Of a stretch of 64,000 nucleotides of DNA, positions 36,001 through 42,463 are shown piece after piece. Within the stretch, counting starts at the first letter, position 1; every line of letters begins with the position of its first letter. Below the pieces are notes generated by a model. That model was not told the DNA's origin, did not search any database, and was given only the letters and a program-made list of their open reading frames with translations. The position numbers and the translations under genes are program-made. The DNA is from Mitsuaria sp. GD03876. Lineage in GTDB: Bacteria; Pseudomonadota; Gammaproteobacteria; Burkholderiales; Burkholderiaceae_C. The stretch covers positions 1-64,000 of the forward strand of contig NZ_JAOCCU010000013.1 in assembly GCF_029840635.1 (NCBI RefSeq), written 5' to 3'.

Positions 36001-36171
36001 GGCTCGCGGCATCGAACGCGCCGTCGCGGTGCCCGTCCCCGTCCTGAAGGGGGAACGCGGCGCCGGACGGCGCGTTTGTCTTCATCCGTCAAGGCGCGCC
36101 GCTCGCGGGCCGGGGAAGCTTCGAGGCCTGTGCCACTTCCCCACGCGGTCCTGTCCGGGACCGCGGCTGCC

Positions 36172-36525
36172 ATGCCGACGATCCTGAGCTTCAACGGCCT
36201 GCGAGCGGTGATCTACCTGAACGACCACCGCCCCGGCCAGGTCCACGTGATGGGCCACGGCTGCGAGGCGCGCTTCGAGTTCCGCCCTCGCGGCCACGCG
36301 AGTTCCACGAGCCATGCGGGCCATGCGGGCCATGCGGGCCATGCGGGCCATGCGGGCCATGCGGGCCATGCGGGCCTCGATGGTGGCGCCGCCGGCGCGC
36401 TGACGCTGACGCTGATGGAGAACCACTTCTTCACCCACGCGCGGCTGAACCGCATCGCCGCGATCCTGGCGAGCCAGCTGCCGCGGCTCAGCGCCGACTG
36501 GAGGGTTCTCCATGGACGGCATTGA
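36172..36525 (+). CDS. DUF4160 protein with (His-Ala-Gly) tandem repeat
   Basis: Protein of 117 residues. The N-terminal half matches DUF4160 ([36 protein letters not shown] is the family opening in type) and the C-terminus has the family ending (a helix with [13 protein letters not shown], then DWRVLHG). Between them is an insertion of seven His-Ala-Gly units (about residues 48-68) encoded by a 9-bp tandem repeat, absent from typical members. It overlaps the downstream DUF2442 gene by 14 bp, the usual pairing. Role unknown; such pairs have been suggested to be toxin-antitoxin-like. Confidence 0.8.
36313..36375 (+). repeat. 9-bp tandem repeat (CATGCGGGC x7)
   Basis: Seven perfect head-to-tail copies of CATGCGGGC inside the DUF4160 gene, encoding His-Ala-Gly each time. 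Because the unit is a multiple of three, slippage would change protein length without breaking the frame. Confidence 0.95.
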
Positions 36526-39868: not shown

Positions 39869-39898
39869 TTGCAAATGAGAGCAATTCTCATCTAGCAT
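39869..39898 (+). promoter_or_regulatory. Promoter with embedded Fur-box-like operator
   Basis: -35 TTGCAA (39869-39874), an 18-bp spacer and -10 TAGCAT (39893-39898). The spacer is filled by an inverted repeat ATGAGA-GCAAT-TCTCAT (39875-39891), close to the proteobacterial Fur-box form. A repressor bound there would block RNA polymerase, so transcription should be induced by iron limitation (inference from the site and the family). Confidence 0.7.
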
Positions 39899-39904
39899 CG
39901 TCAC

Positions 39905-40013
39905 AAACGAAAAGACTCCAGCGGGACCCGAGCCCCGCGACCAATGCAACTTGCACAGAGGCTGCGCCGCCATCAGATCGGCATCGTTCGGCGGCGCGGC
40001 CTCTTTTTCTTTT
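39905..40013 (+). ncRNA. Candidate Fur-controlled small RNA upstream of fumC
   Basis: A start 6-8 nt after the -10 and an intrinsic terminator at 39958-40013 define a transcript of about 110 nt with no convincing ORF. It begins A-rich (CACAAACGAAAAG), contains a GC hairpin near 39920-39940 (GCGGG with CCCGC-type arms) and ends in a strong terminator with a U-rich tail, as Hfq-binding sRNAs do. Iron-repressed sRNAs such as RyhB and PrrF, and BrrF in Burkholderia, have this layout. Read-through into fumC is the alternative use of the promoter. Confidence 0.6.
39958..40013 (+). terminator. Strong Rho-independent terminator before fumC
   Basis: A 14-bp stem (39958-39971 with 39990-40003, a single G-U wobble) with an 18-nt loop, followed by CTTTTTCTTTT. 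It lies about 140 bp upstream of the fumC start, so fumC either has its own promoter beyond it or depends on read-through. Confidence 0.85.
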
Positions 40014-40149
40014 GCATCGTTCGCATGGTCCCCCGTCCGGCCTGGAGTCCCCCACTTCGGCAGGCCCTCCACCGGCTTCACGGCGCCGCGCAACTCACGC
40101 TGCTACGCTGGTCCGTGGCGATCCGCCTGCCCGACATGAAGGAATCCCG

Positions 40150-41550
40150 ATGAACAAGCCCACCCGCATCGAACGAGACTCCATGGGCGAGGTGGCCGTG
40201 CCGGTCGACGCGCTGTACGGCGCGCAGACCCAGCGCGCGGTCGAGAACTTCGCGATCAGCCGCCAGCCGATGCCCGAGCGCTTCGTGCGCGCGCTGGTGC
40301 TGCAGAAGGCCGCGGCGGCGCGCGCCAACATCGCGCTGGAGCAACTGCCCGCCGACATCGGCCAGGCCATCGATCGTGCCGCGACCCAGTTGTTGCAGGA
40401 TCCGGCGCTGATGAGCCACTTCCCGGTGGAAGTTTTCCAGACCGGCTCGGGCACCAGCTCGAACATGAATGCCAACGAGGTGCTGGCCACCGTGGCCACG
40501 CGGCTGATCGGCAGCGGCGCGGCGAACCCGGTCAGCGTCAGTCCCAACGATCATGTCAACGCCGGTCAGAGCAGTAACGACTCGATCCCGACGGTGCTGC
40601 ACATCAGCGCCGCGCAGGCGCTCAACGGCGAGCTGCTGCCCGCGCTGGACCTGCTGGTGCAGACGCTGCAGGACAAGATCCAGAGCGACGGCCATCACGT
40701 CAAGACCGGCCGCACCCACCTGATGGACGCGATGCCGCTGCGCCTGGGCCAGGAGCTGGGCGGCTGGTGCGCGCAGATCGAGGCGCGACGCGCGCAGCTG
40801 CGCGCGCTGCTGCCGTCGGTGTGCGAACTCGCGCAGGGCGGCACCGCGGTGGGCACCGGCATCAACGCGCATCCGGACTTCGCGCGCCGCTTCTGCGAGG
40901 AGCTGTCCACCCTCACCGGCCTGAGCTTCCGCCCGGCGCCGGACTTCTTCGCCGCGCTGTCGGCGCAGGACACGGCGGTGGCGCTGTCGGGCGCGCTCAA
41001 GGGCCTGGCGGTGTCGCTGATGAAGATCGCCAACGACCTGCGCTGGATGAACTCCGGCCCGCTCGCCGGGCTGGCGGAGATCGAGCTGCATGCGCTGCAG
41101 CCGGGCTCGTCGATCATGCCGGGCAAGGTGAATCCGGTGATCCCGGAGGCGGTGACGATGGTCTGCGCGCAGGTCATCGGCCATGACGCGGCGATCACCG
41201 TGGCGGGGCAGTCGGGCAACTTCCAGCTCAACGTGATGTTGCCGCTGATCGCGACCAACCTGCTGGACAGCCTGGCGTTGCTGGCGGCGGCGACGCAGGC
41301 GCTGGCGGCGCAGGCGATCCGCGACTTCAAGGTCAACACCGACGGGTTGCAGCATGCGCTGGCGCGCAACCCGATCCTGGTCACCGCGCTGAACCGCGAG
41401 ATCGGCTACCTGAAGGCCGCCGCGATCGCCAAGCGCGCCTATGCCGAGAAGCGTCCGATCCTGGACGTCGCCGAGGAGATGACCGAGTTCGACCGCGCCA
41501 CGCTCCAGCAGATGCTGGATCCGGCCAAGCTGACCGATGGCGGACTCTGA
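40150..41550 (+). CDS. fumC: Class II fumarate hydratase FumC
   Basis: Iron-independent fumarase, interconverting fumarate and malate in the TCA cycle; 466 residues. Landmarks are ERDSMGEVAVPVDALYGAQTQRAVENF, FQTGSGTSSNMNANEV, SSNDSIPT, KTGRTHLMDAMPLRLGQE and the superfamily signature GSSIMPGKVNP. An upstream Fur-box promoter fits the known use of FumC to replace iron-sulphur fumarases under iron starvation. The 3' end overlaps the ZIP transporter gene by 14 bp. Confidence 0.96.
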   Translation: MNKPTRIERDSMGEVAVPVDALYGAQTQRAVENFAISRQPMPERFVRALVLQKAAAARANIALEQLPADIGQAIDRAATQLLQDPALMSHFPVEVFQTGSGTSSNMNANEVLATVATRLIGSGAANPVSVSPNDHVNAGQSSNDSIPTVLHISAAQALNGELLPALDLLVQTLQDKIQSDGHHVKTGRTHLMDAMPLRLGQELGGWCAQIEARRAQLRALLPSVCELAQGGTAVGTGINAHPDFARRFCEELSTLTGLSFRPAPDFFAALSAQDTAVALSGALKGLAVSLMKIANDLRWMNSGPLAGLAEIELHALQPGSSIMPGKVNPVIPEAVTMVCAQVIGHDAAITVAGQSGNFQLNVMLPLIATNLLDSLALLAAATQALAAQAIRDFKVNTDGLQHALARNPILVTALNREIGYLKAAAIAKRAYAEKRPILDVAEEMTEFDRATLQQMLDPAKLTDGGL

Positions 41551-42463
41551 GGCCGTCATCGCCGCGGACCGGACGTCGGCGCGCCGCCATCGGCTGCGCC
41601 AGGCGCTGGGCTGGACGATCCTGCTGATCGGCGCGGTGCTGCTGCTGCACCAGGGCTGGACCTGGATGCAGCCGGCGGGTGGCATCGGGCAGGGGTCGGT
41701 GATCGTCATGGCGCTGCAGGCCGGCCTGATCGCCGCGGCGGCGACGGCCTTCGGCACCTTGCCCGCGCTGGGCACGCGCAGTTTGTCGGCGCGCGGCCAG
41801 GATGCGCTGATGGGCTTCGGCGCCGGGGTGATGCTGGCGGCCTGCTCGTTCTCCCTGATCATTCCGGGCCTGGCGGCGGCGCGCGATCACGCGACCGCCT
41901 CCGGCGCCGCCGCGCAGGTGGCCCTGGCGGTGCTGCTGGGCGCGTGGGCGTTGATGGCGCTGGACCGCTGGCTGCCGCACGAGCACTTCATCAAGGGCCG
42001 CGAAGGCACCGATCCGACGCGGCTGCGGCGCACGACGCTGTTCGTGATCGCCGTCACGCTGCACAACCTGCCGGAGGGCCTCGCGATGGGCGTGGCCTTC
42101 GCGGCGAACGATCCGCTGGCGGCGGCCAGCCTCAGCCTGGCGATCGCGATCCAGGACCTGCCCGAGGGCTTCGTCATCGCGGTGGCGCTGATGGGGGTCG
42201 GGTACTCGCGGCGCAAGGCGCTGCTGCTGGGCGCGGCCTCGGGGCTGGTGGAGCCGGTCGGCGCGGTGCTGGGCGCCTGGGTCGTGTCGGCGTGGCCGCA
42301 GCTGCTGCCATGGGGACTGGGGTTCGCGGCGGGCGCGATGCTGTTCGTCATCAGCCACGAGATCATTCCCGAGTCGCACCGCAAGGGCCATGAGCGCTGG
42401 GCGACGCAGGGACTGATGCTGGGCTTCGCGCTGATGATGGTGCTGGACACGGCGCTGGGCTGA
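41537..42463 (+). CDS. ZIP family metal transporter
   Basis: Inner-membrane transporter of 308 residues with eight predicted membrane helices. The metal-binding motifs of ZIP proteins are visible in helices IV and V: LHNLPEGLAMGV and IQDLPEGFVIAVAL. A later HEIIPESHRKGHE segment is also typical. The usual His in the second motif is Asp here. It starts inside the end of fumC, so it is translationally coupled. The imported metal (zinc, iron or manganese) is not determined; the fumC/Fur context makes metal homeostasis plausible. Confidence 0.9.
   Translation: MADSEAVIAADRTSARRHRLRQALGWTILLIGAVLLLHQGWTWMQPAGGIGQGSVIVMALQAGLIAAAATAFGTLPALGTRSLSARGQDALMGFGAGVMLAACSFSLIIPGLAAARDHATASGAAAQVALAVLLGAWALMALDRWLPHEHFIKGREGTDPTRLRRTTLFVIAVTLHNLPEGLAMGVAFAANDPLAAASLSLAIAIQDLPEGFVIAVALMGVGYSRRKALLLGAASGLVEPVGAVLGAWVVSAWPQLLPWGLGFAAGAMLFVISHEIIPESHRKGHERWATQGLMLGFALMMVLDTALG

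Follow-up and report, generated by a model that had tools for sequence, protein, structure and literature searches.

A small RNA gene, probably Fur-controlled, in the fumC leader of Mitsuaria sp. GD03876

Introduction

Iron-sparing small RNAs have arisen repeatedly without a common sequence. Those of the RyhB, PrrF and NrrF class are repressed by Fur, measure about 100 nt, end in a terminator and act on sodB, acnB and sdh mRNAs. A study of BrrF from Burkholderia cenocepacia (PMC7377471) places the Fur site of RyhB and PrrF immediately upstream of the RNA. BrrF itself, according to that study, is cut out of the 3′ end of the hemP mRNA; it is not preceded by a separate Fur box, and its end forms no terminator stem-loop. 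The same study reports that at low iron the wild type shows fumC up and acnA, fumA, sdhA, sdhC and sodB down.

For Pseudomonas, another report (PMC3377617) treats the fagA-fumC-orfX-sodA operon as a possible target of Fur and records higher FumC_1 when iron is limiting. Our searches of open-licence papers brought up no iron small RNA for the genus studied here, and none placed before fumC.

Results

A Fur-type box in the promoter of a terminator-ended RNA

The window is a stretch of 64,000 nt from Mitsuaria sp. GD03876 (genome G000), part of contig C5 in the 6.36-Mb assembly. Its relevant features are as follows:

39869..39898, + strand: promoter, with -35 TTGCAA at 39869-39874, an 18-bp spacer and -10 TAGCAT at 39893-39898 (sequence)
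39875..39891, no strand assigned: Fur-type box ATGAGA-GCAAT-TCTCAT within the promoter spacer (sequence, genome count)
39902..40013, + strand: small RNA body of about 110 nt, its start placed from the -10 box (covariance model, fold, covariation)
39902..39919, + strand: 5′ segment CACAAACGAAAAGACTCC, mostly unpaired in the fold
39914-39919, + strand: GACTCC, complementary to a GGAGUC ribosome-binding site and invariant in 8 sequences
39921..39938, + strand: stem-loop 1, GCGGG / CCCGC, its stem kept without covariation and its loop length differing among species
39939..39952, + strand: conserved linker module GACCAATGCAACTT, common to a second RNA locus beside pstS (pattern search)
39957..40013, + strand: intrinsic terminator with a 15-bp stem, an 18-nt loop and a T-tract at 40004-40013 (fold, alignment, covariation)
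40060..40131, + strand: fagA relic of 72 bp, 82% identical to the G202 gene (L030), E 5e-15
40150..41550, + strand: fumC-type class II fumarase, an iron-free enzyme class (PF00206, PF10415; NCBIfam)
41537..42463, + strand: metal transporter of the ZIP family, its gene overlapping the 3′ end of fumC (PF02535)

An earlier reading made from the letters alone (the sequence-only reading) had proposed the promoter, the box, the RNA body and the terminator, and all four are present where it put them. The box is also specific: in a pattern search of the whole genome, TGAGANNNATTCTCA has five distinct sites and the reversed control none, which supports its assignment as a putative Fur box. The remaining four sites adjoin iron-uptake genes, as judged by eye from the translated products, namely a TonB-dependent receptor beside a FecR-like protein, an ECF sigma factor, another TonB-dependent receptor and a periplasmic iron-binding-type protein. 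Promoter and box together (TTG...TCTCATCTAG.AT) precede fumC in 14 of the 16 genus loci compared, and were not found at fumC in L039 and L043. A sigma-70 scan called no promoter here, the site scoring 8/12 by hand against a cut-off of 9. The predicted Fur box is placed so that it overlaps the RNA's own promoter.

The 114 nt from 39903 to 40016 fold at -50.5 kcal/mol (z -4.28), and none of 200 shuffles was equally stable. The arms of the terminator stem lie at 39957-39971 and 39990-40004, and the loop word TCGGCAT is kept in seven of eight sequences; CAAACGA in the 5′ segment is nearly invariant in eight. The terminator is missing from our terminator scan because its 18-nt loop exceeds the scan's loop limit of 8. 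The covariance model hits 39902-40016 with 121.5 bits, the window sequence being among the eight used to build it. The same model, R1, scores 30 bits on the opposite (minus) strand of this terminator and matches weakly at some other places that have no Fur box; all these matches were set aside. The long stem, the T-tract and the fold agree with the proposed terminator-ended transcript and, together with the conservation described below, define a conserved, structured, non-coding RNA with a predicted intrinsic terminator.

Membership in the RyhB, PrrF or any other Rfam family was considered and rejected, since no curated covariance model reaches its gathering score anywhere in the window. Around the RNA, seven matches at E <= 10 belong to unrelated families and fall far under their gathering scores, and at E <= 1 the eight genus loci searched gave none.

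Conservation within one genus

The full RNA is found in 8 of 16 genus genomes at 73.8-128.7 bits, genomes that match by construction because the model was built from these same eight sequences. G211 has a truncated copy (28.2 bits), and at the fumC locus of the other seven genomes the model detects no RNA. The covariance search of relatives that the sequence-only reading had proposed thus finds box and RNA conserved together in half of the genus sample.

A search of 399 family genomes, with stricter filters than the genus search, returned G000, G203 and G205 as sole full-length matches, all of them genus members; outside the genus no full-length match appeared, and G148 gave a weak match of 36 bases. 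When 191 bases were compared with 200 family genomes by BLAST, the window itself aside, only chance-like GC-rich matches of 20-46 bases came up. For finding relatives, the covariance model outperformed BLAST.

In the alignment of the eight sequences, 92.8% of the cells are standard pairs and eight pairs change on both sides, none of them in stem-loop 1. The covariation score is 0.269 versus 0.160 in shuffles, with none of 500 as high, and falls to 0.067-0.118 when pair partners are slid by 1-3 columns; a measure of further pair types is ordinary (180 of 500 shuffles).

Over the 28 sequence pairs, mean pairwise identity is 0.714 for the RNA, 0.376 for the next 110 nt and 0.888 for fumC; the RNA lies below the third positions of fumC (0.778), which are biased in this GC-rich genome. 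Two of the eight RNA genomes have lost fagA and are therefore without homologous downstream DNA. For the 15 pairs of fagA-bearing genomes, the values are 0.73 for the RNA versus 0.48 downstream (hand average from the same table).

On a fumC tree, the RNA occurs in six of the seven members of one supported clade, the seventh being G211 with its truncated copy. It is also present in G201, which has no firm position, and in G200, inside another group. This distribution would fit either an ancestral RNA with more than one loss or an RNA that has moved. Judged by these comparisons, the RNA gene is real and conserved, with a range that is part of one genus.

The fumC operon and the history of fagA

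All 16 genus genomes have fumC. In the window its best NCBIfam model is fumC_II, with a score under the curated cut-off, and the gene begins at 40150, 137 nt after 40013 as had been claimed. The ZIP gene, which follows fumC, is probably in the same operon; the predicted gene after it matches neither Pfam nor NCBIfam models at E 0.001. In the window, no sodA is seen two genes past fumC. Elsewhere in the window, 36130-36525 encodes a predicted protein with about seven consecutive HAG repeats, possibly metal-binding.

Directly before fumC, fagA is found in 12 of the 16 genus loci (L029-L032, L034, L036-L042), 11 of which also carry the promoter; in L032 its frame is shifted close to the 3′ end. 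The encoded protein is a homologue of Pseudomonas FagA (35% identity, 113 aa, E 8e-21, in the one pair compared), and one FagA scanned against Pfam and NCBIfam matched no model. By eye, the Pseudomonas loci L046 and L054 repeat the fagA-fumC order, and an AT-rich box resembling a Fur site lies upstream of their fagA. From this synteny we identify the predicted promoter as that of a Pseudomonas-like fagA-fumC operon, and it is through this operon that the proposed link between fumC and iron starvation finds support.

In the window itself, the order Fur promoter - fagA - fumC is broken, fagA being a relic. Read by eye, the fumC tree is most parsimoniously explained by three independent losses of fagA, in G000, G203 and G211, with fumC kept each time; the RNA abuts fumC in this genome only because of the loss in G000. 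The proposed single promoter for both RNA and fumC would fit the RNA-less loci L037, L038 and L040-L042, where the same promoter leads into fagA-fumC, but here a strong terminator intervenes.

Separately, we observed that GCCAGCCCG(C/T)G recurs in a TonB receptor leader after hemP (L254) and in fagA leaders in several of L029-L041, with seven copies in the G000 stretches scanned.

Alternative readings of the leader

The RNA could act in cis only, attenuating fagA-fumC from within the operon's 5′ leader; termination or anti-termination would then set the output, and the free RNA would be no more than a by-product. In each of the eight genomes with the whole RNA, it lies downstream of the Fur promoter and ahead of fagA or fumC, a place that would suit this role, as would the complementarity of its GACUCCUG to CAGGAGUC at the fagA ribosome site of L029, L032 and L034. 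However, CAGGAGTC is found at fagA also in the RNA-less L038, L039 and L042, and the RNA-bearing L030, L031 and L036 have different sequences at this site. Moreover, the RNA is intact in G000 and G203 despite the loss of fagA. Having come through two of the three losses, it is therefore independent of fagA, which argues that it is probably a trans-acting small RNA and not merely a fagA leader; a purely cis-acting leader we regard as unlikely.

Still less probable, in our estimate, is a plain terminator with an ordinary untranslated leader and no regulation beyond Fur. Seven of the 16 genus genomes indeed manage without the RNA, and a terminator ahead of an operon also damps upstream read-through, but the 5′ segment and the linker are nearly invariant outside the stem, the stem covaries, and identity is far above that of adjoining non-coding DNA.

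Finally, compared by description, a place in the Burkholderia BrrF family is hardly credible: the two RNAs share the bacterial order (inferred), control by a Fur promoter, which for ours is predicted, and some expected targets, yet by its locus and anatomy ours is not BrrF, given the hemP-derived, box-less and terminator-less form described in PMC7377471, the location of hemP on another contig (C12) from the RNA at fumC with its own promoter, and our search for a BrrF-like RNA at hemP loci, which found none, model R1 matching nothing at those of six genus genomes.

Candidate targets

The pairing potential of the RNA is suggestive only: GACUCC could mask the GGAGUC ribosome sites of sodB and acnB, and the linker could pair near sdhC. 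We predicted 389 genes from 482,541 bases of this genome with a home-made codon-position caller and no annotation. Fourteen have GGAGT[CT] at -24 to -4, including sodB and acnB, both identified by Pfam (the sodB product is an Fe/Mn-type SOD). In a smaller set of 107 genes, sodB and acnB alone have the motif. Among seven candidates of the RyhB kind (sdhC, sdhD, sdhA, sdhB, gltA, acnB, sodB), about 0.25 hits are expected; the enrichment is suggestive at most, because the motif was chosen after some sites had been seen. GACUCC is an anti-Shine-Dalgarno sequence and would fit 12 further genes of the 389.

At sodB the site is AGGAGTC in G211 and in seven genomes with the RNA; G200, which also has the RNA, shares AGGAGTG with the four RNA-less genomes examined. 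One change on the tree may account for this split. That G200 has the RNA yet AGGAGTG at sodB counts against the explanation favoured below.

Interaction scoring in this genome ranked sodB 9th, sdhB 27th and acnB 44th of 379 with the 5′ segment, and sdhC 3rd with the linker and 9th with the loop (both of 379). Across the eight genomes, always set against background genes of G000, sodB ranks 16-87 of 379 with a slightly longer 5′ segment (37 here), and sdhC ranks 3-30 of 379 with slightly different linker segments. The best sdhC pairing in four genomes is a 7-nt ribosome-site match, not TTGCGTTG. The latter is found upstream of sdhC in all eight RNA-bearing genomes and G211, and in none of the four examined genomes that lack the RNA. 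Since a TAAAAT resembling a -10 box lies next to it, the site may sit in the sdhC promoter, outside the transcript.

A pairing of sdhB with CCGCNGGAG was rejected: it is seen in five genomes, one apparent compensatory change occurring in G202, but G000 and G200 do not keep it. Two further target tests covered eight genes, acnB and sodB being left unscored, and seven genomes with 40 shuffles for each gene. Their lone strong value was sdhB in G205 (0 of 40); the start patterns of the second test found gltA in no genome and sdhA in G200 alone. As a separate observation, several genus genomes have an inverted repeat GTTTTCATG...CATGAAAAC upstream of sdhC (L239:11513-11638, by eye), a possible operator.

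A second RNA beside pstS

The pattern RACCAATGCAAN{0,3}TT has exactly two sites in the genome, the Fur RNA and one on contig C37. A second terminator-ended RNA, sharing GACCAATGCAA-TT with the first, is found at L153:3533-3617 on the minus strand (G000 C37:38032-38116), and also in L154, L155 and L156. The C37 site lies between a divergent pstS-like gene (PF12849) and a convergent gene that reads by eye as glmM. Matches in G206, G205 and G200 are similarly placed (per-genome E 4e-4 to 0.017); the remaining four RNA-bearing genomes show no pstS-linked match at E <= 1. Upstream of the second RNA, G000, G206 and G205 have two TGTCAT words exactly 22 nt apart, which we take to be the spacing of a PhoB box, and we infer that this RNA may be under PhoB control. 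In G200, a fasciclin-like gene (by eye) stands ahead of the module instead.

Searched across the family, the linker plus a T-run occurs in 50 of 399 genomes against about 8 for the reversed control, many of the matches being one recurring coding-like sequence (by eye). Six genomic sites carry TTGCATTGG, the complement of the linker, against 1 for the reversed control: both RNAs, two places that look coding and two positions past terminators. Of the last pair, the copy at L239:3881-3889 on the minus strand lies just beyond the terminator after acnB and faces sodC, while the other follows a terminator in L190.

Discussion

We consider it reasonably likely that the Fur-repressed promoter of a former fagA-fumC operon makes a small RNA of about 110 nt that pairs with iron-enzyme mRNAs, while fumC is still supplied. 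The box, the promoter sequence, the RNA structure, its conservation and the operon history are read from the DNA, and by these the small RNA gene is probably Fur-controlled. Fur binding, the transcript, its pairing and targets, and read-through would then combine as follows. With ample iron, Fur would repress the promoter inherited from a Pseudomonas-like fagA-fumC operon. As iron falls, Fur would leave and the terminator-ended RNA would accumulate, pairing through its exposed GACUCC and its linker (GACCAAUGCAA) with iron-enzyme mRNAs, the likeliest being sodB, acnB and perhaps sdhC, so as to lower their translation. Leakage through the terminator or another promoter would supply fumC. Against this explanation count the seven of 16 genus genomes that are without the RNA, the one where it is truncated, an identity lower than that of fumC third positions, and target signals that are weak and in part post hoc.

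The overall picture drawn by the sequence-only reading survives in its Fur-type box, its terminator-ended RNA, their joint conservation in 8 of 16 genomes and the link to a fumC operon. What changes is the meaning of the adjacency to fumC, which in this genome came about solely through the loss of fagA.

A rather doubtful extension would place both starvation RNAs of the genus in one family, with GACCAAUGCAA plus terminator as their common module. The Fur copy in the fumC leader and the PhoB-type copy divergent from pstS would act on shared central-metabolism mRNAs, with read-through from the Fur copy's promoter also yielding the iron-free fumarase. If true, the module would join iron and phosphate starvation by way of these common mRNAs; its presence beside pstS raises the question of whether one pairing sequence serves two starvation responses.

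For the single RNA, gain or loss of an iron-sparing regulator could be traced inside one genus, in the leader of an operon for an iron-free enzyme. Natural genomes exist without the RNA, without fagA or without both, and the origin of such regulators is therefore testable.

The Pseudomonas fagA operon (PMC3377617) shares with this genus a Fur-type promoter and, in 12 of 16 loci, a FagA homologue together with fumC. In contrast, part of the genus has the RNA with its terminator inserted ahead of fagA, downstream of the promoter; here the gene after fumC is a ZIP transporter, no sodA is seen, and fagA has been lost. With BrrF, as portrayed in PMC7377471, our RNA has in common a proposed role in iron starvation and partly the same expected targets, but it differs in its own promoter, its own terminator and its locus.

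Its likeness to RyhB, PrrF and NrrF lies in a Fur-type box in its own promoter, a length of about 100 nt, an intrinsic terminator and the candidate targets sodB, acnB and sdh. Unlike them, it forms the leader of a fumC operon and has no Rfam match. Although a member of neither family by the tests made, by its anatomy the RNA would work like RyhB or BrrF.
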